Below, piece after piece: positions 2,209-12,754 of a stretch of DNA of 12,754 bases. The notes beneath the pieces were generated by a model that made no database searches, was not told the DNA's origin, and was given only the letters and a program-made list of their open reading frames with translations. Location: the NCBI GenBank assembly GCA_030840415.1, contig JAVEEO010000522.1:1-12754 (forward strand), given 5' to 3'. Positions within the stretch are counted from its first letter, which is position 1, and the number at the start of each line of letters is the position of its first letter. A program made the position numbers and the translations under genes. This DNA is from Pseudonocardiales bacterium (lineage in GTDB: Bacteria; Actinomycetota; Actinomycetes; Mycobacteriales; Jatrophihabitantaceae).

Positions 2209-3549
2209 TCAGGCGTCGCGGAAGCGGTTGATCTGGTCCAGGTGCTTGGTCCGCAGCTCGGGGTCGGTGACCCCCTGGCCCTCGCCGTCGGCCAGGCACA
2301 GCACGCCGACCTTGCCCTGGTGGGCGTTGCGGTGCACGTCGTAGGTCGCCTGCCCGGCCTCGGCCAGCGGGTAGGCCCGCGACAGGGTCGGGTGGATCGC
2401 GCCCCGGGCGATCAGCCGGTTGGCCTCCCAGGACTCCCGGTAGTTGGCGAAGTGCGAGCCGATGATCCGCTTGAGGTTCATCCACAGGTAGCGGTTGTCG
2501 TACTCGTGCAGGTAGCCCGAGGTGGAGGCACAGGTGACGATGGTGCCGCCCCGGCGGGCCACGTAGACCGAGGCGCCGAAGGTCTCGCGGCCGGGGTGCT
2601 CGAAGACGATGTCGGGATCGTCGCCGCCGGTCAGCTCCCGGATCCGGGCGCCGAGCCGCTTCCACTCCGACTGGTCCTGGGTGTGCGGGTCCTTCCAGAA
2701 GCGGTAGGCCTCGGCCGACCGGTCGATGATCAGCTCGGCGCCCATCCGCCGGCACAGCTCGGCCTTGTCCGGCGAGGAGACCACGCAGACCGGGATCGCC
2801 CCGCCGTTGAGCGCGTACTGGGTGGCGTAGCCACCGAGCCCGCCCGAGGCGCCCCAGACCAGCACGATGTCGCCCTGCTTCATCTGGGCGCCGTTGTGGC
2901 TGACCAGCTGCCGGTAGGCCGTGGAGTTGACCAGGCCGGGGGAGGCGGCCTCCTCCCAGGTCAGGTGCCCGGGCTTGGGCATCAGCTGGTTGGACTTGAC
3001 CAGGGCGAGTTCGGCCAGGCCGCCGAAGTTGGTCTCGAAGCCCCAGATCCGCTGCTGCGGATCCATCATGGTGTCGTCGTGGCCCTGCGGCTCCTCCAGT
3101 TCCACCGACAGGCAGTGCGCCACCACCCGGTCGCCGACGCGCCACCGCGACACGCCCGGCCCGGTGCGCAGCACCACGCCCGAAAGGTCCGAACCCACCA
3201 CGTGATAGGGCTGGTCGTGCTTGCGGGCCAGCTCCGAGCTGCGGGCGTAGCGGCGCAGGAAGTCGAAGGTCGAGACCGGTTCGAAGATGGACGTCCAGAC
3301 CGTGTTGTAGTTGATGGCACTGGCCATCACCGCGATCAGCGCCTCGCCCGGGCCCACTTCCGGGGTCGGCACCTGCTGCAGGTGCAACGACTTGCGGGGA
3401 TCCTTGTCACGGGTGCTCAGGCCCTCGAACATGCCCGCCTCGTCGGCGCGCACCACGACCCCGGCGTAGCTGGTGGGAACCTCCAACTCGGCCAGGGACG
3501 CCAGCGACTCGGCGGTGGCGGTGTTGACGGCGGCACGGATCTGGTCCAC
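2209..3549 (-). CDS. ccr: Crotonyl-CoA carboxylase/reductase
   Basis: A 446-residue zinc-independent MDR-family enzyme that reductively carboxylates crotonyl-CoA with NADPH and CO2 to (2S)-ethylmalonyl-CoA. This is the key step of the ethylmalonyl-CoA pathway and a source of polyketide extender units. The NADPH-binding turn VWGASGGLGG lies at 231-240. Residues reported to hold CO2 in the Kitasatospora enzyme (Asn81, Phe170, Glu171, His365) align, with an offset of one, to Asn82 (in NYNTVW), Phe171-Glu172 (in WGFETNFGG) and His366 (in GSHFANYRE). A true carboxylase is therefore expected rather than a plain enoyl reductase. The GTG start is supported by GAAGGG at 3563-3558 on the minus strand, 8 nt upstream. 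The gene follows mce by 89 nt on the same strand. Length is typical and no defect is visible. Confidence 0.96.
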   Translation of the reverse strand: MDQIRAAVNTATAESLASLAELEVPTSYAGVVVRADEAGMFEGLSTRDKDPRKSLHLQQVPTPEVGPGEALIAVMASAINYNTVWTSIFEPVSTFDFLRRYARSSELARKHDQPYHVVGSDLSGVVLRTGPGVSRWRVGDRVVAHCLSVELEEPQGHDDTMMDPQQRIWGFETNFGGLAELALVKSNQLMPKPGHLTWEEAASPGLVNSTAYRQLVSHNGAQMKQGDIVLVWGASGGLGGYATQYALNGGAIPVCVVSSPDKAELCRRMGAELIIDRSAEAYRFWKDPHTQDQSEWKRLGARIRELTGGDDPDIVFEHPGRETFGASVYVARRGGTIVTCASTSGYLHEYDNRYLWMNLKRIIGSHFANYRESWEANRLIARGAIHPTLSRAYPLAEAGQATYDVHRNAHQGKVGVLCLADGEGQGVTDPELRTKHLDQINRFRDA

Positions 3550-3594
3550 GGCAGGAACCCTTCGGCGTCGGCTCTGGGGCGGGCGAGTGCTCGA

Positions 3595-3600
3595 AGGTTA
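3595..3600 (-). promoter_or_regulatory. Candidate -10 box for ccr
   Basis: Read on the minus strand this is TAACCT, which fits the actinobacterial TANNNT consensus. It lies about 45 nt upstream of the ccr GTG, leaving room for a short leader containing the ribosome site. No convincing -35 element is seen 17-18 nt further upstream (GGCCCG there), so the call is weak. ccr could equally be read through from mce. Confidence 0.25.
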
Positions 3601-3630
3601 CTGACGGGTAGCGCTTTCGGGCCGGATGTG

Positions 3631-3642
3631 GTGACCGGTCAC
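3631..3642. promoter_or_regulatory. Perfect 12-bp palindrome between mce and ccr (candidate operator)
   Basis: GTGACCGGTCAC is a perfect palindrome with no spacer. It includes the mce stop codon and sits about 35-45 bp upstream of the candidate ccr -10 box. A GTG/CAC flank extends the symmetry with one unpaired base. The position suits a dimeric regulator acting on ccr, but a short palindrome in GC-rich DNA may be chance and no regulator gene is adjacent. Confidence 0.35.
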
Positions 3643-4058
3643 ACACCCGGTGCGGGCTCGACCAGCTCGATCAGCACGCCGCCGGCGTCCTTGGGGTGGA
3701 CGAAGTTGACCCGGGACCCGGCGGTGCCGCGCCGGGGCTCGTCGTAGAGCAGCCGCAGGCCGCGGGCGCGCAGCTCGGCCGAGGTCGCCTCGACGTCGTC
3801 GACGGTGTAGGCCAACTGCTGCATGCCGGGCCCGTTACGGTCGAGGAACTTCGCGATGGTGGAGCTGGCGTCCAGCGGGGCCAGCAGCTGGATCCGGCTG
3901 CTGCCGTCCCCGACCGCCAGCATCGCCTCCCGGACACCCTGCTCGGCATTGACCTCCTCGTGCACGCTGGCGATGCCGAAGGTGTCGCGGTAGAAGGCGA
4001 TCGCGGCGTCGAGATCGGCGACGGCGATGCCGACATGGTCGATGCGCAGGATGGTCAT
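3639..4058 (-). CDS. mce: Methylmalonyl-CoA (ethylmalonyl-CoA) epimerase
   Basis: A 139-residue vicinal-oxygen-chelate (glyoxalase-fold) protein that interconverts the 2R and 2S epimers of methylmalonyl-CoA. It probably also acts on ethylmalonyl-CoA, which lets Ccr products reach the B12 mutases. Two beta-alpha-beta-beta-beta modules are apparent. Family strings are RIDHVGIAV at 5-13, EQGVREAML at 39-47, [15 protein letters not shown] at 105-119 and [15 protein letters not shown] at 121-135. His8, Gln57 and Glu131 match three of the metal ligands known from the Propionibacterium enzyme. The fourth, a His in a GxGxHH motif, is replaced by Gln80-Gln81 (GPGMQQLAY). The ATG at 4058 is chosen because homology begins there. 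An in-frame upstream ATG would add 38 non-conserved residues. No clear Shine-Dalgarno precedes 4058, so the transcript may be leaderless or nearly so. Confidence 0.93.
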
Positions 4059-4265
4059 GGGCACATGGTGCGCCGTGGCGGAGGGTGTGGAAAAGGGCCG
4101 GGTGGTGCGGCTCATATCCACAGCGGCCCCGCTCGGGCCCGCACCGGCCGATCGGCTCGATATTGTGGACACACTGTGCCGTCGTCGCCCCCAGTGCCCG
4201 CGGCGCGGTACGTCCAGAGGCAGCCGTTTCGACCAGCTGCCCCGCCGCAGTTGGAGGAGGCTCGC
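4059..4265. promoter_or_regulatory. Divergent promoter region between mce and the thiolase gene
   Basis: These 207 bp separate two divergent operons and must hold both promoters unless one lies inside a gene. On the plus strand TATTGT at 4161-4166 fits the TANNNT -10 consensus and would give a leader of roughly 95 nt to the thiolase ATG. No good -35 precedes it. On the minus strand only weak candidates are seen around 4113-4120 (GTGGATAT). No riboswitch-like fold or small gene was recognised. Confidence 0.35.
4253..4260 (+). promoter_or_regulatory. Strong ribosome binding site fixing the thiolase start
   Basis: GGAGGAGG ends 5 nt before the ATG at 4266. The reading frame is open for almost 600 bases upstream because of high GC, so this site plus the onset of thiolase homology decides the start. 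Confidence 0.85.
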
Positions 4266-5498
4266 ATGTCAGCAACCACATCGGTGATCGTCGCCGGCGC
4301 CCGCACGCCGGTCGGCAAGCTGCTCGGCGCGCTGAAGGACTTCTCGGCCACCGACCTCGGCGGCCTGGCGATCAAGGCCGCCCTGGACAAGGCCGGCGTC
4401 GCCGCCGACCAGGTGCAGTACGTGATCATGGGCCAGGTGCTCACCGCCGGCGCCGGCCAGATCCCGGCCCGGCAGGCCGCCCACAAGGCGGGCATCCCGC
4501 TGACCGTCCCGGCGCTGACCATCAACAAGGTGTGCCTGTCCGGCATCGACGCCATCGCGCTGGCCGACCAGCTGATCCGCGCCGGTGAGTTCGACGTCGT
4601 GGTGGCCGGCGGCCAGGAGTCGATGACCCAGGCGCCGCACCTGCTGCCCAAGTCCCGCGAGGGCTTCAAGTACGGCACCGTCGAGCTGACCGACCACATG
4701 GCCCACGACGGCCTGTGGGACGTCCTCACCGATCAGGCGATGGGCGGCCTGACCGAGGCGGCCAACCGCGGCGACCAGGAGTTCAGCCGGGCCGAGCAGG
4801 ACGCCTTCGCCGCGCGCAGCCATCAGCTGGCCGCCGAGGGCTGGAAAAATGGCGTGTTCGACGACGAGGTGATCGCGGTGTCGATCCCGCAGCGCAAGGG
4901 CGAGCCGCTGGAGTTCCGGTTCGACGAGGGGATCCGCGTGGACACCAACGTCGAGACCCTGGCCCGGTTGCGGCCGGCGTTCCGCCCGGACGGCACCATA
5001 ACCGCGGGCTCGGCGTCGCCGATCTCCGACGGCGCGGCGGCGGTCGTGGTGATGAGCAGGGCCAAGGCGCAGGAGCTGGGCCTGAACTGGTTGGCCGAGA
5101 TCGGCGCGCACGGCGTGGTCGCCGGCCCGGACTCGACCCTGCAGCACCAGCCCGCCAACGCGATCTGGGCCGCGGTGGCCAAGGAGGGCATCACGGTCGC
5201 CGACCTGGACCTGATCGAGATCAACGAGGCGTTCGCCGCGGTCGGGCTGGCCTCGACCAAGGAACTCGGCGTGCCGGCCGACATCGTCAACGTCAACGGT
5301 GGGGCGATCGCGGTGGGCCACCCGATCGGGATGTCGGGCGCCCGGATCACCCTGCACCTGGCGCTGGAGTTGCAGCGCCGTGGCGGTGGGATCGGCGTGG
5401 CGGCGCTGTGCGGCGGTGGTGGCCAGGGCGACGCCCTGATCGTCCGGGTACCGCGGCGCGACGCTCAGAGCACGGTTGCTCAGAGCCCTGTGGCCTGA
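4266..5498 (+). CDS. Acetyl-CoA C-acetyltransferase (thiolase)
   Basis: A 410-residue biosynthetic-type thiolase that condenses two acetyl-CoA to acetoacetyl-CoA, the entry to the ethylmalonyl-CoA pathway. The nucleophilic cysteine is Cys90 (in INKVCLSG). The NEAF motif is at 320-323, His352 is in [14 protein letters not shown] at 345-358, and the acid/base Cys382 is in LCGGGGQG. The start of the protein, [15 protein letters not shown], is typical of the family. A tail of about 15 residues after the usual LIVRVP end (396-410) is Ala/Gln/Ser-rich and contains a short DNA duplication. The stop is only 3 nt from the meaB start, so both are one operon. The divergent mce, and ccr beyond it, support an acetoacetyl-CoA-forming rather than beta-oxidation role. 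Chain-length preference cannot be read from sequence. Confidence 0.95.
5463..5486 (+). repeat. Two copies of GCTCAGAGC at the 3' end of the thiolase gene
   Basis: GCTCAGAGC occurs at 5463-5471 and again at 5478-5486, a period of 15 bp (five codons). Each copy is itself a GCTC-A-GAGC inverted repeat. In protein terms it encodes a repeated AQS in the non-conserved thiolase tail. It may be simple slippage duplication, or paired half-sites or hairpins just ahead of the meaB start. Confidence 0.6.
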
Positions 5499-5501
5499 TC
5501 G

Positions 5502-6491
5502 GTGGTCTCCAGCCGGCCCGCTTCGCGTCGCTCGGGGGCTGACATCGCCGGGCTGGTGGAGCGGGCCAGGCAGGCCGATCCCCGGTCGGTCGCCAGGCTG
5601 ATCTCCCTCGTCGAGGACGGCTCGCCGGCGCTGCGCGAAGTGGCCGAGCGGCTGATGCCCTTCACCGGGCACGCCCAGGTGGTCGGCATCACCGGCTCGC
5701 CCGGGGTGGGCAAGTCGACCTCCACCTCGGCGCTGGTGGGCGCGCTGCGTTCAGCCGGCAAGCGGGTCGCGATCCTGGCGGTCGACCCGTCCTCGCCGTT
5801 CTCCGGCGGGGCGCTGCTGGGTGACCGGGTGCGGATGCAGGACCATGCCACCGACCCGGGGGTGTTCATCCGGTCGATGGCCACCCGCGGCCACCTCGGC
5901 GGGCTGGCCGCTGCCGCCCCGCAGGCGTTGCGGGTGCTGGACGCGGTCGGCTGCGACGTGGTGCTGATCGAGACGGTGGGGGTCGGCCAGTCCGAGGTCG
6001 AGGTGGTGCAGCTGGCCGACACCACGGTGGTGCTGCTGGCCCCGGGAATGGGCGACGGCATCCAGGCCGCCAAGGCCGGCATCCTCGAGATCGCCGACGT
6101 CTTCGTGGTCAACAAGGCCGACCGGGACGGCGCCGACCAGGTCGCGCGCGACCTGCGCTACATGCTGTCACTGGGCGGCAAGCACTCCGAGGCCGGCGCC
6201 TGGCGGCCGCCGATCGTCAAGACCGTGGCAGCCCGGGCCGAGGGCGTCGAGGACCTGGTGGCGGCCATCGACAAGCACCGGGACTGGATGCTGGCCAGCG
6301 GTGAGCTGCAACGCCGCCGGCAGGCCCGGGCCGGTGCGGAGATCGAGGCGATCGCGGTGGAGGCGGTGCGCCGCCGGTTCTCCGAGATCCACGGTGCGGC
6401 CGCCCTGGCCGAACTCGCCAACCGGGTAGCCGGCGGCCAACTGGATCCCTATGCCGCCGCCGACGAGCTGGTCGCCTCGCTGCCGGTCTGA
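5502..6491 (+). CDS. meaB: MeaB/ArgK-family G3E P-loop GTPase, B12-mutase chaperone
   Basis: A 329-residue GTPase that gates cofactor loading and protects adenosylcobalamin mutases (methylmalonyl-CoA or ethylmalonyl-CoA mutase) from inactivation. The Walker A motif GSPGVGKST is at 65-73, followed by the long family signature AVDPSSPFSGGALLGDR at 93-109. ETVGVGQSE, containing the Walker B/switch region, is at 157-165, and the guanine-specificity motif NKAD is at 204-207. A helical C-terminal dimerisation arm runs from about 265 to 329. The GTG at 5502 lies 3 nt after the thiolase stop without its own Shine-Dalgarno, so translation is probably coupled. The first 12 residues are not conserved and a slightly later start is possible. 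No mutase gene is in the window, so the client must be encoded elsewhere. Confidence 0.95.
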   Translation: MVSSRPASRRSGADIAGLVERARQADPRSVARLISLVEDGSPALREVAERLMPFTGHAQVVGITGSPGVGKSTSTSALVGALRSAGKRVAILAVDPSSPFSGGALLGDRVRMQDHATDPGVFIRSMATRGHLGGLAAAAPQALRVLDAVGCDVVLIETVGVGQSEVEVVQLADTTVVLLAPGMGDGIQAAKAGILEIADVFVVNKADRDGADQVARDLRYMLSLGGKHSEAGAWRPPIVKTVAARAEGVEDLVAAIDKHRDWMLASGELQRRRQARAGAEIEAIAVEAVRRRFSEIHGAAALAELANRVAGGQLDPYAAADELVASLPV

Positions 6492-6514: not shown

Positions 6515-7048
6515 TCAAGCGGGGGCGCGCAACCGCTCGATGCCGGGATGGCCGATCAGTGCCCGCAGCTGCAGCACGCACCAGGGCGACAGCTGCGGGG
6601 TCCGGCCGGCGAGCATGTCGTCCCAGTCCAGCCACCGGCTCTGCTCGACCTCCGAGGGCTGCAGCGTGGGTTCGCCGCTGACCCGGACACCGAAGACCGG
6701 GCAGATCTCGTTCTCCACCACGCCGTCGAGCTCGGCGCGGTAGCGGAAGTCGGGCAGCAGGTCGATCACCTCGTCGGCACGCAGCCCGAGTTCGAAGTCG
6801 AGCCGGCGGTGCAGTGCCTGCTCGGTGGGCTCGCCGGGCATCGGGTGCCCGCAGCAGGAGTTGGTCCAGACGCCCGGCCAGGTGTGCTTGGACAGCGCCC
6901 GCTGGGTGAGCAGGAACCGGCCCTGCCGGTCGAAGACGTAGCTGGAGAAGGCCAGGTGCAGCGGCGTGCTGGCGTGATGGCTGGTCGCCTTGGGAGCGGT
7001 TCCCAGCGCGGCGCCGTCCTCGTCGACCAGCACGATCAACTCGGTCAT
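6515..7048 (-). CDS. idi: Isopentenyl-diphosphate delta-isomerase, type I
   Basis: A 177-residue Nudix-fold enzyme that interconverts IPP and DMAPP, needing Mn/Mg but no flavin. The catalytic Cys66 is in TNSCCGHP at 62-69. The metal ligands His24, His31 and His68 are in place, as is Glu86 in the degenerate Nudix region (DFELGL). The catalytic and metal-binding glutamates are in ENEICPV at 112-118 (Glu112, Glu114). The length matches the bacterial enzyme. The ATG at 7048 is preceded by GAGAGG (7060-7055 on the minus strand), 6 nt away. The gene converges on meaB but is divergent from the plus-strand terpenoid operon to its right. I infer that it supplies the DMAPP/IPP balance for the polyprenyl synthase encoded 1.5 kb away. 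Confidence 0.96.
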   Translation of the reverse strand: MTELIVLVDEDGAALGTAPKATSHHASTPLHLAFSSYVFDRQGRFLLTQRALSKHTWPGVWTNSCCGHPMPGEPTEQALHRRLDFELGLRADEVIDLLPDFRYRAELDGVVENEICPVFGVRVSGEPTLQPSEVEQSRWLDWDDMLAGRTPQLSPWCVLQLRALIGHPGIERLRAPA

Positions 7049-7127: not shown

Positions 7128-7418
7128 AGGCATACCGTCCGGGACGACATCGCCGGGTTCCGGCACCGCGACGGTGTCCACGGTCGAGCGCCGAGCGCCT
7201 CCGGCGCATCCAGAAATCGCCACTGCTGTAGACAGATTGCGACCTTTGATCAGTCATCAGGCTCGCAGGATCGACAACTGGCAATGATTATTCCCGTTAG
7301 CTAGCGGACCATTCGAACCTTGACTTAATGTCTGCGCTACAAGCACGATTCAGCACGATGCGTCGACGGAGGCCGCGGGCGAACCCGCGCGCGGCCGGGC
7401 CGTCGCCGTGCCCCGAAC

Positions 7419-7424
7419 AGAAAG
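7419..7424 (+). promoter_or_regulatory. Ribosome binding site favouring the GTG start of the methyltransferase
   Basis: AGAAAG is complementary to the 16S rRNA 3' tail and lies 8 nt before GTG at 7433. The in-frame ATGs at 7328 and 7358 have no such site. The codons between them and 7433 (CTA, CAA, GCA, CGA) are unlike the rest of the gene. Confidence 0.55.
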
Positions 7425-7432
7425 CCAGCCTG

Positions 7433-8461
7433 GTGCCCCCTACTGACGCAGCTCCCTCACCGGAGGTTGTGGCTCGGCTGAGAAGCCTGATCGATCTGGC
7501 CACCCCGTTCGCCATCCGGGTGGTCGCGTCGCTGCGGGTGGCCGAGCGGCTGGACGCCGGCGTGCACGAGGTGGACGCGCTGGCCGCGGCGGTGGGAGCG
7601 GACCCGGACGCGCTGGCCCGGCTGCTGCGCTACCTGGTGCACCGGGAGGTGTTCACCGAGGGGCCGCCGGGACAGTTCGGCCTGACCGAGGTGAGCCGGA
7701 TGCTGCTGGACCGCAGCCCGGCCGGGATGGGTCGGTGGCTGGACCTGGAGGCCATCGGCGGTCGGATGGACCTGGCCTACAACGGATTGCTGCATTCGGT
7801 GCGGACCGGCGAGGTGGCTTATCCGGTCGTGCACGGCCGGACATTCTGGGAGGACCTGGATTCAGAGCCGCATCGGCGCTTCATCGACGAGCTGATGCTC
7901 GTGCAGGGCAGCCGGACTTCGCCCCAGGTCGCCGAACTCTACGACTGGAGCGCAGTCACCGATGTGGTCGACGTCGGCGGTGGCAGCGGCGGGCTGCTGG
8001 CCGAACTGCTCGGCCGGCACCCGCACCTGCGCGGCGTGCTGGTCGACCTGCCCAACGCACCGGCGGTCGCCAAGCAACTGTTCGCCGACCGTGGCCTGAC
8101 CGACCGCACCGAGATCGTCACCGGCACCTTCTTCGACCGGTTGCCGGCCGGCCACGACGTCTACACCGTGGCGCGCGCGATCACCGACTGGCCCGACGAG
8201 GAAGCCACCCAGATCCTGGCCCGGATGGCCGAGGCGGCCGGAGAGCGAGGCCGGGTGTTGATCATCGAGGTGCTGCCCACCGATCCGCAGGTGCCGTACG
8301 CCACCTCCTTCGATCTGGAGATGCTGGCGACCGTCGGCGGCCGGGAGCGGACGCCGGCCGACTTCGACGCCATCGCCGCCGACGCCGGCCTGGTGCCGAC
8401 CCGGCTCATCCGAGGGCAGCAGGGGCTGGTGCTTCTGGAATACGCATGCGCCTCCTGCTGA
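7433..8461 (+). CDS. SAM-dependent O-methyltransferase family 2 protein
   Basis: A 342-residue protein from the GTG start. An in-frame ATG at 7328 would add 35 Arg/Pro-rich, poorly coding residues. An N-terminal winged-helix dimerisation domain (about 10-95, AIRVVASLRVAERLDAG) precedes a Rossmann methyltransferase domain. SAM motif I, VVDVGGGSGG, is at 178-187, with Asp205 (LVDLP) placed to bind the SAM ribose. In plant-type members the catalytic base is the His of an HDW motif; here the motif reads ITDWPDEEA, with Thr251 at that place. The target may therefore not be a simple phenol, or the protein may do another reaction, as some family members do. It heads the plus-strand operon, 37 nt before the polyprenyl synthase. 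A quinone, phenol or carboxylate in a terpenoid or meroterpenoid product is a possible acceptor. Family certain, substrate unknown. Confidence 0.87.
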   Translation: MPPTDAAPSPEVVARLRSLIDLATPFAIRVVASLRVAERLDAGVHEVDALAAAVGADPDALARLLRYLVHREVFTEGPPGQFGLTEVSRMLLDRSPAGMGRWLDLEAIGGRMDLAYNGLLHSVRTGEVAYPVVHGRTFWEDLDSEPHRRFIDELMLVQGSRTSPQVAELYDWSAVTDVVDVGGGSGGLLAELLGRHPHLRGVLVDLPNAPAVAKQLFADRGLTDRTEIVTGTFFDRLPAGHDVYTVARAITDWPDEEATQILARMAEAAGERGRVLIIEVLPTDPQVPYATSFDLEMLATVGGRERTPADFDAIAADAGLVPTRLIRGQQGLVLLEYACASC

Positions 8462-8498: not shown

Positions 8499-9515
8499 AT
8501 GACCATCACCGGACCGGTTCCGCTCGCACTCCTCGACGACCTGGCGCACAGCCGCACCGGTGAGTTGCTGCACGACGCGCTGGCGGCCAGGTGGCCGTCG
8601 GACTCCGACGAACTGAACGCCATCGCCCGGTACGCGCTGCTTCCGGCCGGCAAGTTCCTGCGTCCGGTGATGACCATGACGGCGGCCGAGGCGGTCGGCG
8701 GCGAGCCGAGCCAGGTGCTGCCGGCCGCGCTGGCGATGGAGTACCTGCACGTGGCCACCCTGACCCACGACGACATCATCGACGGCGACATGGTGCGCCG
8801 CGGCCGCCCCACGGTGCACGTCGCGCACGGCCTGGCGCACGCGATCGTGGCCGGCGACCACCTGATCTTCGCGGCCTTCACCGGGCTGGCCGAGTGCCGG
8901 GAGGCCGGCCTGCGCGATCCGGCGGTGGTGGAGTCGGTGGCGGTGCTGGCCGAGGCCGGTTCGGACCTGTGCCGGGGCCAGATGCTCGAAGCCCGGCTGG
9001 TCGGCGACATCACCGCCGAACCCGAGACCTACCTGGAGATGGCGCGGCTGAAGACCGGTGCGCTGTTCCGCGCGGTCTGCCAGATCGGCGCGCTGCTGGC
9101 CGGGGCGTCCAGCGAGCAGGCCGCCGCGCTCGGCCGGTACGGCTCGGACCTCGGGGTGGCCTTCCAGATCCGCGACGACCTGATCCTGTTCGCCGACCCG
9201 GACGACGCCGACAAGCCGACCGGCAGCGACCTGGCCAACGGCCGGCCGACCCTGCCGGTGCTGGTGGCCTACCAGACCAGTGACGAGGACACCCGGCTGG
9301 CGATGGGTGCGGCGCTGGCCCGCCGCTCGGCCGAGCCCGCGGAGTTCGACGAGTTCCGGGCGCTGCTGATGGCCACCGGAGCACTGCAGGGCTGTTCGGA
9401 GTACGCCACCGAGTTCGGCCGGCGGGCGCTGGACGGGCTGGCCGGCCTGGCGCCCTCGCACAGCGTCGACCTGCTGACCGGGATCGTTCAGTGGGCGGTC
9501 ACCACCAGGCCATGA
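8499..9515 (+). CDS. Polyprenyl diphosphate synthase (trans-isoprenyl diphosphate synthase)
   Basis: A 338-residue all-alpha enzyme that elongates allylic diphosphates with IPP. GKFLRP at 51-56 binds diphosphate. The first Asp-rich motif is DDIID at 91-95, KTGALF is at 185-190, and the second Asp-rich region, QIRDDLILF, is at 223-231. The second motif lacks its last Asp (Leu230), as in some actinobacterial members. The residue five before the first motif is Ala86 (HVATLTHDD), as in medium and long-chain synthases, rather than the bulky Tyr/Phe of C15/C20 enzymes. The product may therefore exceed C20, although depth-controlling residues elsewhere can override this. GGAGAA at 8485-8490 precedes the ATG by 8 nt. 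The stop overlaps the UbiA start (ATGA), tying the two in translation. Confidence 0.93.
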   Translation: MTITGPVPLALLDDLAHSRTGELLHDALAARWPSDSDELNAIARYALLPAGKFLRPVMTMTAAEAVGGEPSQVLPAALAMEYLHVATLTHDDIIDGDMVRRGRPTVHVAHGLAHAIVAGDHLIFAAFTGLAECREAGLRDPAVVESVAVLAEAGSDLCRGQMLEARLVGDITAEPETYLEMARLKTGALFRAVCQIGALLAGASSEQAAALGRYGSDLGVAFQIRDDLILFADPDDADKPTGSDLANGRPTLPVLVAYQTSDEDTRLAMGAALARRSAEPAEFDEFRALLMATGALQGCSEYATEFGRRALDGLAGLAPSHSVDLLTGIVQWAVTTRP

Positions 9516-10684
9516 GCAGCACCACCCCATCCCGGCGTTCCGGTGCCAGCTCCCGGCTGCGTGCGTCCCGCCGTCCTCCCCGGCTGCGCACGTCCTGGCT
9601 GGGTATCCGGCTGATCGCGCACCTGCAGACCTGGCGGCTCTACACCCTCTGGTACGTCGGGTTCGTCGGCCTGGCCGGTGCCGGCCTGAGTCCCGGCCCG
9701 CACGAGGGCCTGCGGCTGTTCGCGGCGTGGGCGGTGCCGACCCTGGGCTGGCTCGGCGGGCACTACCTCAGTGACTACTTCGACCGCGACCTCGACGCCA
9801 TCGCCAAGCCGCACCGGCCGATCCCGTCCGGCCGGCTGCCGGCCCGGACGGCGCTGGCCTGCGGGGTGCTGGCCATGCTGGCGGTGGCCGTGCTGGCGGT
9901 GCTCACCGGCTGGCGCACCAGCCTGATCGCGGTACTGGCGGTGGCCGCGGTGCTGGCCTACGGGCTCAAGCTCAAGGCCCTGGGCATCGCGGGCAACCTG
10001 GTACGTGGCGCCCTCGGGGCGCTGGCCCTGCTGTACGGGGCGGCCTGCGCGCCGCCGTTCGCGTGGGCGGTACTGCTGCCGTTCGTCGCGGCGTTCTGGC
10101 TGCACGACACCTGCTCGAACCTGGTCGGCACGCTGCGCGACGTGGACGGCGATCGGGCCGGCGGCTATCGCACCCTGCCGGTCACCCACGGCACCGCGAC
10201 CGGTGCCCGGGTCGCGCTCGGCCTCTACCTGCTGACGTTGCTGGCCGCCGGCTGGGGTGGCTTAGCGGCTCCGGCGAGCCGGCATGGCTGGTTCCTCCTC
10301 GGTCTCGCGGCGGTCGCCGCCGTCGGGTTCGCCGCCCTGCTGCCATTGCTGGGACGGCGGCAGTCCCAGGCCCAGCTGGCCGCCCGGGAGGCGCTGCGGG
10401 CGCACGAGCTGCTGGTGCTGGAGCGGATGTGCCTGGCAGCGGCGGTGATCGGGCTCGGGCTGGGGATGTTGCCCGCGGTGCTGCTGCTGATCCCGGCGCT
10501 GACCCTGACCTGGTGGTCGCAACGCGCCCTGCGATCCTGGTACGAGTTCGGCGGCACAGATCAAACATCGGCACCAGCTTCGGTACAAGCGCCAGTACCG
10601 GTCCCACCGCCGGCCGACCCACCGCTGGACCACCCGGCCGGCACCGCCCCGCCGAGCCTGGAGAAGGGAAGCAGCTATGCCTGA
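9512..10684 (+). CDS. UbiA-family membrane prenyltransferase
   Basis: A 390-residue integral membrane protein with about eight or nine hydrophobic helices between residues 45 and 335. UbiA enzymes transfer a prenyl chain from its diphosphate to an aromatic or other acceptor; a few instead cyclise the chain. The first Asp-rich motif reads SDYFDRDLD at 87-95, with Ser for the usual leading Asn, followed by KPHRPIPSG at 99-107. The second is RDVDGDRAGGYRTLPV at 209-224. An Arg-rich N-terminus (about 1-30) and a Pro-rich C-terminal tail (351-390) lie outside the fold and look unstructured. The ATG at 9512 overlaps the preceding stop as ATGA. A GTG at 9491 would add 7 residues. The gene's end overlaps the cyclase start by 8 nt. 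The acceptor cannot be read from sequence. MenA-like quinone synthesis is an alternative but does not explain the linked cyclase. Confidence 0.9.
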   Translation: MSSTTPSRRSGASSRLRASRRPPRLRTSWLGIRLIAHLQTWRLYTLWYVGFVGLAGAGLSPGPHEGLRLFAAWAVPTLGWLGGHYLSDYFDRDLDAIAKPHRPIPSGRLPARTALACGVLAMLAVAVLAVLTGWRTSLIAVLAVAAVLAYGLKLKALGIAGNLVRGALGALALLYGAACAPPFAWAVLLPFVAAFWLHDTCSNLVGTLRDVDGDRAGGYRTLPVTHGTATGARVALGLYLLTLLAAGWGGLAAPASRHGWFLLGLAAVAAVGFAALLPLLGRRQSQAQLAAREALRAHELLVLERMCLAAAVIGLGLGMLPAVLLLIPALTLTWWSQRALRSWYEFGGTDQTSAPASVQAPVPVPPPADPPLDHPAGTAPPSLEKGSSYA

Positions 10685-12401
10685 GCTCACCGAACTGGTC
10701 GAGCACGCCGTCCGGTCGGGGGCTGAGGAGTTGTTCGGCCGGCAGCGCGCGGACGGCGCGTTCGGCGACGACCCGCCGAGCTCGGTGCTGGGCACCGCCG
10801 GCGCGATCACCGCGCTGCACTTCGCCGACCCCGGCGGCTCGGCGCAGCTGATCGCCGACGGCAGCCGGTGGCTGCGTTGGGTGCAGCAGCCCGACGGTGG
10901 CTGGGGCGGCGTGCTGGGTGCGGCCAGCGAGCCGATCGCGACCTCGGTGGCGACCGCGGCCCTGCAGATCGTCGACGCCGAAGCCGGTGCCGAGGCGGTC
11001 GCACGCGGCCGGGCCCGGCTGGAAGAGCTCGGCGGCCTCACCGCGATCACCGACCCGGCAGTGCTGCTGCTCTGCAAGACCTTCTACGTGCTGGCCGGTT
11101 TCCTGCAGCCCTCCGACCTGCGCCGGCTGCCGCTGGAGATCGTGCTGTTCGACCGGGTGCGACGGCAGAACGTGTCATTCCGGACCGCCCCGTTCGCGGC
11201 GCTGGCGCTGGCCCAGTCGGTCACCGACCCGGCCCGCGGGCTTCGCGGCCTGACCTCACGGCTGGCCCGGGGCAAGGCGCTGAAGCTGCTGCGCGAGGTC
11301 TACGAGCACGAGGGCCGGACCGGGGACTTCAGCGAGGACCCGTGGCCGGCCGCGTTGGTCTGCCTGAGCCTGGCCCGGGCCGGCCTGGCACCGGACATGG
11401 TCGCCGCCAGCGCCGGCTACCTGCGTCGCTCGGTCCGTCCCGACGGCTCCTGGGACGCGGTGAGCAACCTGGACCTGACCCGCTCGGGGTTCGCGGCCAC
11501 CGGCCTGATCGCGGCCGGCTATGCCGCCGACCCGCGGCTGGAGCGGACCCGGCAGCTGTTCCACCGCTGCCAGCAGCAGCAGGAGTTCACGGTGCTGGCC
11601 TGCCCACCGGGCGGCTGGAGCTTCTCCGGCCCGCGCGGTTGGCCGGTCACCCTGGAGTCGGCCGAGATCGTCGCCGCCCTGGCCACCATGCCCGACCCGG
11701 CCGCCGACCCGGTGCTGCGCACCGGCCTGGACTGGCTGCGCGGCCGGCAGGACAGCCGCGGCTCCTGGAGCCTGTGGGTGCGCGACACCAAGCTCGCCAA
11801 CGACGGCCCGTGCCCGAGCATCACCAGCCAGGGCATCACCGCGCTGCTGGACGCCGGGCTGCCGGCCGACAGCCCCGAGGTCAGCAAGGCCGCCGACTGG
11901 CTGCTCACCCAGCAGCGGCCGGACGGCACCTTCGACAACCTCTGGTACCGCGACTACACCACCGGCACCGCGGCGGTGCTGGCCGCGCTGGCCCGGGCCG
12001 GCCGCGGCGACGACCCGGTCACCGTGCGGGCCAAGCAGTGGTTGCTCGACACCCAGCGTCCGGACGGCTCGTGGGGTGACGGGGCCGAGTCCGAGAGTTC
12101 GGTGGAGGAGACCGCCTGGGCGCTGCACGCGCTGCTCGAAGCCGGGCTGGACGCCGGCTCCGAGCCGGTCAGCAGGGCGGTGAACTGGCTGGTGGGTGCC
12201 CAGCTGCCCTCCGGCGGCTGGCAGCCGAGCCGGATCTGCGCCTACATCCGGCACAACATGTACTACCCCAACGGCGCCATCACCCGCGGCCTGGCGCTGC
12301 GCGCGCTGGGGCTGTACCTGAGCACGGCCGCCGGTTCGGCAACCCACGGTCACGCTCCTGCCGTTGCCAGTCCCGCCATCAGCGAGGAGTCCGGTCGATG
12401 A
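10677..12401 (+). CDS. Squalene-hopene/oxidosqualene cyclase-like protein lacking the catalytic Asp motif
   Basis: A 574-residue alpha/alpha double-barrel terpene cyclase relative, shorter than squalene-hopene cyclases (about 630-720). QW-type repeats are seen at 23-30, 70-77, 253-259, 358-364, 413-419, 460-466 and 509-515. By eye, GDFSEDPWPAALVCLSLA (216-233) matches the cyclase GDWGGIQPPW region, DGTFDNLWYRDYTTGT (416-431) the GSWFGRWGVNYLYGT region, and the end MYYPNGAITRGLALRALGLYL the C-terminal FPTLALGRY region. At the DxDD place it reads GWPVTLESAE (321-330). Leu326 takes the position of the catalytic Asp (Asp376 of the Alicyclobacillus enzyme, Asp455 of human lanosterol synthase), with Glu327 beside it. 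Loops that hold other active-site residues are shortened. Start: ATG at 10677 with GAGAAGGGA at 10661-10669. It probably acts on a UbiA or polyprenyl product, or is a non-catalytic binding relative. Fold confident, reaction unknown. Confidence 0.85.
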   Translation: MPELTELVEHAVRSGAEELFGRQRADGAFGDDPPSSVLGTAGAITALHFADPGGSAQLIADGSRWLRWVQQPDGGWGGVLGAASEPIATSVATAALQIVDAEAGAEAVARGRARLEELGGLTAITDPAVLLLCKTFYVLAGFLQPSDLRRLPLEIVLFDRVRRQNVSFRTAPFAALALAQSVTDPARGLRGLTSRLARGKALKLLREVYEHEGRTGDFSEDPWPAALVCLSLARAGLAPDMVAASAGYLRRSVRPDGSWDAVSNLDLTRSGFAATGLIAAGYAADPRLERTRQLFHRCQQQQEFTVLACPPGGWSFSGPRGWPVTLESAEIVAALATMPDPAADPVLRTGLDWLRGRQDSRGSWSLWVRDTKLANDGPCPSITSQGITALLDAGLPADSPEVSKAADWLLTQQRPDGTFDNLWYRDYTTGTAAVLAALARAGRGDDPVTVRAKQWLLDTQRPDGSWGDGAESESSVEETAWALHALLEAGLDAGSEPVSRAVNWLVGAQLPSGGWQPSRICAYIRHNMYYPNGAITRGLALRALGLYLSTAAGSATHGHAPAVASPAISEESGR

Positions 12402-12754
12402 CCATGCACGACCTGTCGATGAACGAGTCCCGGTTCGGCCCGCTGCCCAGCGTCCGGGCGGCCGTCGAGCAGGGCGCCGCGCAGTTGCACCGCTACCCCT
12501 CGCACACCGCGGCGCCGCTGGTCGGGGCGCTGGCAACCCACCTGGACGTGCCGGCGTCGGAGATCCTGGTCGGGCCCGGCTCGGCCGGCCTCACCCAGAA
12601 CCTGATCGCCTCGCTCGGTCCCGAGCGCACCGAGGTGGTGTACGCGGCGCTGTCGTTCGAGGCCTACCCGCTGATGGTGATGAACACCGGCTGCCGGCCG
12701 GTCCCGGTGCCGATGGCCGGCCCTGGCCGCCTCGCCCACGACCTGGACGCGATG
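12398..12754 (+). CDS. HisC/Pat-like PLP aminotransferase, N-terminal part (cut by window end)
   Basis: The first 119 residues of a fold-type I class I/II aminotransferase. LSMNESRFGPLPSV at 6-19 and HRYPSH at 31-36 match the start of histidinol-phosphate aminotransferases. GPGSAGLTQNL at 59-69 takes the place of the PLP-phosphate loop (GNGSDEL in HisC). Its G-x-GS-x-x-L-x-Q form is nearer to the aromatic aminotransferase Pat of corynebacteria. The SFEAY segment at 86-90 carries the ring that stacks on PLP. The PLP lysine lies beyond the window. The ATG overlaps the cyclase stop (ATGA at 12398-12401) and follows GAGGAG at 12384-12389, so it is translated together with the cyclase. It could aminate a terpenoid aldehyde or ketone, or make an amino-acid-derived building block. 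A housekeeping histidine role is unlikely in this operon. Confidence 0.88.
   Translation, partial: MTMHDLSMNESRFGPLPSVRAAVEQGAAQLHRYPSHTAAPLVGALATHLDVPASEILVGPGSAGLTQNLIASLGPERTEVVYAALSFEAYPLMVMNTGCRPVPVPMAGPGRLAHDLDAM

Follow-up and report, generated by a model that had tools for sequence, protein, structure and literature searches.

The window, meaning the whole 12,754-nucleotide stretch of DNA analyzed here, carries on its forward strand a terpenoid gene cluster. An O-methyltransferase gene (7328..8461; Pfam Methyltransf_2, 119 bits), homologs of which lie near the cyclase gene in many relatives, precedes four ORFs that overlap end to start. These encode a polyprenyl diphosphate synthase, probably a geranylgeranyl diphosphate (GGPP) synthase (8499..9515; Pfam polyprenyl_synt, 201 bits), a UbiA-family prenyltransferase whose gene overlaps the start of the following one (9491..10684; Pfam UbiA, 110.9 bits), a 574-amino-acid class II cyclase-like protein of the squalene-hopene cyclase (SHC) superfamily devoid of DxDD motif (10677..12401), and a HisC-like aminotransferase cut by the end of the window (12398..12754). 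The aminotransferase fragment scores 104.8 bits against PRK03321, and two full-length homologs score 374 and 369 bits for a cut-off of 374.

Other features of the region can be mentioned. In the prenyl diphosphate synthase, the first motif is DDIID and the second, DDLIL, is missing the usual last Asp; the corresponding sequence in relative L019 is DDLLS. An isopentenyl-diphosphate isomerase gene (6515-7048), which borders the cluster on the opposite strand and is at the same place in both same-genus relatives, may supply the pathway. Beside the terpenoid cluster, positions 2209-6491 encode a crotonyl-CoA carboxylase/reductase and MeaB, together with methylmalonyl-CoA-epimerase-like and acetyl-CoA-acetyltransferase-like proteins named by eye. 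A same-genus genome (L013) has this ethylmalonyl-CoA-type set next to its cluster as well.

The cyclase contains the two Pfam SQHop_cyclase domains (_C and _N, 101.6 and 82.5 bits for cut-offs of 26.1 and 26.2) and is predicted to fold into two alpha-barrel domains, as in the SHC superfamily. Its top relative of solved structure, by sequence, is the SHC of Alicyclobacillus. Against the equivalog of squalene-hopene cyclases, TIGR01507, it scores 106 bits, below the cut-off of 431, and against TIGR03463 (2,3-oxidosqualene cyclase) 87.7 bits, below that of 851; the Asp conserved in the latter is absent as well. A PHROGs search gave no match. The middle Asp of the catalytic motif is the proton donor in SHCs and diterpene cyclases and is conserved in oxidosqualene cyclases (OSCs), according to the available part of PMC11795633. 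In the window cyclase, the degenerate motif GWPVTLESAE occupies residues 321–330 (11637..11666, forward strand). The sequence alignment pairs SHC D374, D376, and D377 with V324, L326, and E327, placing Leu326 (codon 11652..11654) at the donor position and Glu327 (codon 11655..11657) at the third-Asp position, in the first turn of a predicted helix (325–337). SHC H451 stands opposite an alignment gap, beside A389. The first-pass annotation, made from the sequence alone, had proposed that Leu326 replaces the donor Asp within a triterpene-cyclase fold, and both the SHC alignment and Pfam bear this out. The DxDD motif required of class II diterpene cyclases is absent, and this SHC-fold protein of 574 amino acids differs from the Pyr4-like cyclases, which are small integral-membrane proteins. 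By fold the cyclase is thus a member of the SHC superfamily, yet without the donor residue common to SHCs, OSCs, and class II diterpene cyclases, and it should not be filed under any of these three names.

Conservation of the degenerate motif and the DxDD sister clade

Whole-genome and collection searches yielded a set of 35 DxDD-less sequences, including that of the window, to which the others are 36–84% identical. They come from Micromonospora, Pseudonocardia, Labedaea, Amycolatopsis, Nocardia, Kutzneria (a metagenome-assembled genome, MAG), Streptomyces, Wenjunlia, Symbioplanes, and the genus of the window. We left out L048 (26% identity, DxDD kept), L049 (partial), and L010 and L011, whose contigs are those of L034 and L047. 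At position 326, 32 sequences have a Leu, two a Val, one a Gln, and none an Asp; the replacement of the donor is therefore conserved among orthologs (L or V in 34 of 35), a point that the first-pass annotation had proposed to check. Position 327 is a Glu in 29 sequences, an Asp in five, and an Ala in one, so that an acid is present in 34. Loss of the donor with retention of the neighboring acid is found in at least seven genera. All 19 Micromonospora copies that we reached through the UbiA gene, 12 of them from genomes already counted, encode GWPVTLESAE. Two aromatic residues, W322 and W423, are also strongly conserved. The family is sparse, being detected in four of the 394 genomes of the class at an E value of 1e-40, the window's own genome included. 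The dN/dS of the cyclase gene is 0.27–0.31 within the genus and 0.61–0.66 relative to a Micromonospora copy.

The sequence with Gln and Ala at 326 and 327, L046 (9950-11629, Streptomyces speibonae), retains three of the acids described below (D221, E212, and the E477/E478 pair). Neither UbiA nor either kind of flavoprotein was matched in the 21.6 kb around this gene, and the same genome also carries a normal family member (L032). L046 constitutes a natural test of the need for an acid at position 327. Another particular case is L042 (contig CAJCJE010000549.1), labeled as a Candidatus Melainabacteria MAG. Its cyclase matches in two pieces and groups with those of Nocardia, and the contig is perhaps mislabeled or a contaminant.

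A search of the phylum at 1e-60 matched 8 of 396 genomes, six of which belong to another actinobacterial class (family f70) and form a sister clade; searching 39 genomes of that class returned the same six. Their cyclases (L137-L142) retain D-x-D-D-T, for example as GWPDTDDTA. UbiA is encoded beside the cyclase in five of the six, and a GGPP synthase-like match is likewise present in five at 1e-5. Inspection by eye of L137 and L139 revealed no recognizable tailoring gene beside that of the cyclase, and the product of this clade may be a simple cyclized prenyl-aryl or lipid compound. According to the first-pass annotation, orthologs with a normal DxDD would have indicated that the window copy is simply mutated and inactive. 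The DxDD relatives that we found are instead this separate clade, 32–36% identical to the window cyclase, and ordinary SHCs (28–29%).

The tree was drawn with midpoint rooting, and canonical SHCs served as outgroup for its interpretation. The split between the DxDD-less sequences and the DxDD sister clade is supported at 100/100 and 100/99. In the DxDD-less clade, two NxLD lineages are the first to branch (one fork at 95/78) and the xxLE form is derived, with L046 within it, the placement of the long branches L046, L047, and L048 being less sure. This topology suggests that the changes occurred in the order DxDD, NxLD, xxLE. The simplest history would be that the first and middle Asp disappeared once, before a D to E change at the third position.

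Other conserved residues distinguish these groups. Asp221 (codon 11337..11339), an acid particular to the DxDD-less clade and a rival candidate for proton donor, is present in 35 of 35 DxDD-less sequences and replaced by Ser in the six sisters and by Pro in five of five canonical SHCs. It aligns with SHC P263, which we take to be a cavity residue. Glu212 (codon 11310..11312) is similarly invariant in the 35 sequences, with Gln in the six sisters, and canonical SHCs show Gln in one alignment and Asp in another. Because the SHC reading depends on the alignment, Glu212 was dropped as a cleanly clade-specific acid and Asp221 alone was used. Arg525 (codon 12249..12251), also particular to the DxDD-less clade, is an Arg in 34 sequences and a Lys in one, for Ala or Ser in the sisters and Asn or Ser in canonical SHCs. 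Conversely, Arg425 and the segment E477-E478-T479 are common to the DxDD-less and sister clades. Arg425 (codon 11949..11951), possibly an acceptor-binding residue, is found in all 35 and all six sequences, and is a Val, Ser, Asn, or Ala in canonical SHCs. The Glu477-Glu478 pair (12105..12110) lies in the first turn of a predicted helix (476–488). Position 477 is acidic in all 35 sequences (Asp in two), position 478 is always Glu, both are Glu in the six sisters, and canonical SHCs have Ser/Gln. Since DxDD-bearing sisters possess it, this pair is no replacement for the lost motif, and a relocated catalytic pair was set aside as the lead explanation.

Gene content of the related clusters

Among the 34 sequences with an acid at position 327, 33 could be evaluated for context, the window being the 34th and cut off. 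The fetched DNA encodes a window-like UbiA in 29 of these 33 and a GGPP synthase match in 29. Of the four without window-like UbiA, L045 and L047 encode a different UbiA-family protein, not matched by tblastn with the UbiA of the window, the DNA of L039 begins 255 bases before the cyclase gene, and in L040 no UbiA was found in the fetched DNA. Within Micromonospora, the window's UbiA type is present in 19 of 160 genomes and the cyclase gene adjoins it in all 19. The earlier proposal that the cyclase acts on the UbiA product fits this linkage. Other recurrent genes encode aminotransferases, TauD-type dioxygenases, P450s, and O-methyltransferases. No other cyclase family was found among the selected neighbor proteins scanned, a scan that left small membrane cyclases aside.

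Several of these genes bear on the nature of the prenyl acceptor. L045 (4957-6204) and L047 (5545-6699) carry, about 4 kb upstream of their NxLD-type cyclase gene and separated from it by that of the UbiA-family protein, a 4-hydroxyphenylpyruvate dioxygenase gene (438 and 428 bits, cut-off 277), a sign that the acceptor in these deep-branching lineages may be of the homogentisate type. L033 encodes a fumarylacetoacetate-hydrolase-family protein upstream of UbiA. In the window group, an aromatic 2-oxo acid would be compatible with the HisC-like aminotransferase.

A flavoprotein of one of two kinds is encoded in the fetched DNA of all 33 evaluable relatives (at 1e-8; in this count L002, L003, and L004 are represented by L012, L013, and L014). 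In 29 only the first kind is present, a FAD_binding_3 protein resembling squalene epoxidases and UbiH, encoded mostly directly 3' of the cyclase gene. It scores 41 (L019) and 35 bits (L028) against the Pfam squalene epoxidase family (SE, cut-off 20.1). Its top NCBIfam subfamily is UbiH-type, although below the cut-off, and hydroxylation is therefore possible for this kind. Three relatives, the two same-genus siblings of the window and Pseudonocardia, carry instead a MonCI/Lsd18-like protein encoded 3–6 kb from the cyclase gene, and their genomes contain no close copy of the first kind (best matches 58, 43, and 68 bits). L045 encodes both kinds. The top solved relatives of the second kind are MonCI (2.3e-61) and Lsd18, described as polyene epoxidases in the available parts of PMC10560226 and PMC12144862. 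The swapping of flavoprotein subfamilies around the same cyclase suggests that the cyclase needs a reaction which both could perform, olefin epoxidation. This association rests on few evolutionary events, namely one loss of DxDD and a change of flavoprotein in two lineages.

The contig of the window ends inside the aminotransferase gene, before the expected place of the epoxidase gene, and the best MonCI-like match in the assembly is only 34% identical and on another contig. In both siblings a glycosyltransferase gene lies between those of the aminotransferase and the epoxidase. As this gene is also missing from the window's assembly, which is 85.6% complete, the missing epoxidase is uninformative.

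In the sister clade, neither kind of flavoprotein was found in the fetched DNA of the six members, two of which are on short contigs (6.9 kb for the sixth and 11.2 kb for another). Genome-wide, the best match to the first kind reached 93 bits and 30% identity, on another contig, and MonCI-like proteins (36–38% identity) were detected in two of the six, encoded far from the cyclase gene or on another contig; this search covered the two flavoprotein kinds, and P450 epoxidases, known from such pathways (PMC13307353), may be present there. The first-pass annotation had missed both the DxDD sister clade and the linkage to an epoxidase-type gene, which point to an epoxide substrate.

Proposed mechanism and alternative readings

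We propose that the window protein is an SHC-superfamily meroditerpenoid cyclase that may have shifted from alkene protonation to epoxide opening. Epoxide opening is likely overall, whether E327 or another acid donates the proton, and we lean toward the fuller version in which the middle Asp is dispensable and E327 is the favored donor. The GGPP synthase would provide a C20 chain, which UbiA would join to a small, probably aromatic, acceptor. The flavin monooxygenase would then epoxidize an olefin of the chain, and its acid-catalyzed opening by the cyclase would initiate polyene cyclization. The most likely proton donor would be the acidic residue that occupies the position of the third Asp, a Glu (E327) in the window and an Asp in the deeper branches. 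Oxido-GGPP is presented as a more readily protonated substrate in the available part of PMC11795633. Since an epoxide is protonated more easily than an alkene, the high-acidity DxDD apparatus, with its first and middle Asp, would have been lost. It is an evenly balanced proposition that the middle Asp was abandoned when the epoxidase joined the pathway, protonation moving to another carboxylate (E327 or the newly gained D221), and that the DxDD, NxLD, and xxLE forms survive as an evolutionary series.

The role of E327 itself is less than certain, because D221, E212, and R525 are conserved and L046 is an exception. The first-pass annotation had suggested Glu327 as the new donor: the acid kept in 34 of 35 sequences agrees with this, and D221, conserved at least as well, leaves E327 as a candidate only. 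The acid at the third position could also have been retained for helix capping, not for catalysis. Alternatively, the epoxide might be opened by an acid at another place in the cavity, D221 being the first candidate, and E327 would have a structural or tuning role. The distribution of D221, universal in the DxDD-less clade including L046 and replaced in the sisters and at the P263 position of SHCs, fits this scenario, as does that of E212, subject to the alignment-dependent reading in SHCs. However, D221 and the DxDD site are not in the same barrel half, which would probably imply a substrate bound in reverse, and the acid at 327 is nearly as constant. We consider this version unlikely, although D221 is the main alternative to E327.

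More doubtful still is a persistence of alkene protonation, through E477/E478 or E327, in which case the flavoprotein would act at a later step, on either the cyclized product or the aromatic moiety. UbiH-type flavoproteins are ring hydroxylases, and the first kind is closest to this NCBIfam subfamily, below its cut-off. The E477-E478-T479 segment is placed at a helix start like D376-D377-T378, and is common to the 35 sequences (with Asp for E477 in two) and the six sisters. Yet these sisters have the pair while retaining DxDD, the MonCI-like proteins are among olefin epoxidases, and SHCs and diterpene cyclases depend on DxDD for alkene protonation, according to the available part of PMC11795633.

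The loss of the residue delivering the proton in known relatives and the tight linkage to UbiA might also be accounted for by a protein that is not a cyclase, such as a scaffold for UbiA or, as the first-pass annotation had considered, a prenyl-chain-binding partner, or by an enzyme catalyzing another kind of reaction. This is quite improbable, as the fold is complete, its acids and aromatic residues (W322, W423) are strongly conserved, and the neighbor proteins scanned, small membrane cyclases aside, supplied no other cyclase family. Lastly, the absence of the catalytic Asp might be ascribed to decay of a functionless SHC paralog, a reading already contradicted by the within-genus dN/dS, the same loss with the neighboring acid kept across genera, and the intact overlapping operon.

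Comparison with known cyclases

The nearest known system in logic is MstE, a type II meroterpenoid cyclase from Scytonema, linked, like the window cyclase, to a UbiA-type prenyltransferase. MstE (structures 6sbb-6sbg) has the SHC fold and acts on geranylgeranyl dihydroxybenzoate, with a chain of 367 amino acids compared with 574 for the window cyclase. The D109A and D109N mutants named in the structure titles suggest an Asp donor, where the window cyclase has L326, and the substrate in these titles carries no epoxide. Compared with the Alicyclobacillus SHC (2sqc), the window cyclase lacks D374 and D376, has a gap at H451, and is linked to UbiA. OSCs, exemplified by the human enzyme (1w6k), keep the middle Asp, as stated in the available part of PMC11795633, whereas in the window cyclase it is lost and its neighbor is acidic. 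Bacterial class II diterpene cyclases, such as drimenyl diphosphate synthase (7xqz), ent-CPP synthase (5bp8), and Tpn2 (7xkx), use prenyl diphosphates, and their donor Asp lies in a DxDD-type motif (in line with the available part of PMC11795633) that the window cyclase does not have. The linkage to UbiA argues against a prenyl diphosphate substrate for the latter. Structure 8zg1, considered as a natural DxED precedent, was rejected, as its title shows that D303E was engineered into drimenyl diphosphate synthase.

The zigralone cluster of Micromonospora follows the same logic of aminotransferase, polyprenyl synthase, UbiA, epoxidation, and cyclase. According to the available part of PMC13307353, however, epoxidation is carried out there by a P450 and the cyclase, the Pyr4-like ZigF, is an unrelated small transmembrane protein. 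A zig-like Micromonospora locus with genes named by eye (L128) was reached through DUF6875, found at 27 places in 23 of 160 Micromonospora genomes. Because blastp at 1e-3 found no similarity of the aminotransferase and UbiA of this locus to those of the window, we did not infer an indole acceptor by homology to zigralone. The gromomycin cyclase is also unrelated, as far as the available part of PMC12105684 describes it. In the titles and abstract beginnings of the open-licence literature searched, neither this cluster nor DxDD-less SHC-like cyclases were reported.

Class II terpene cyclases are described as sharing the middle Asp, a residue on which mining by motif depends. Conserved families that lack it would be misread as inactive or overlooked. 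The series formed by DxDD cyclases, for which no linked epoxidase was found, and NxLD and xxLE cyclases, which have one, makes the question of the acid strength needed for an alkene versus an epoxide testable, and bears on whether a proton donor can move. Some thirty actinobacterial clusters (33 with context in this analysis) are candidate sources of new meroditerpenoids.
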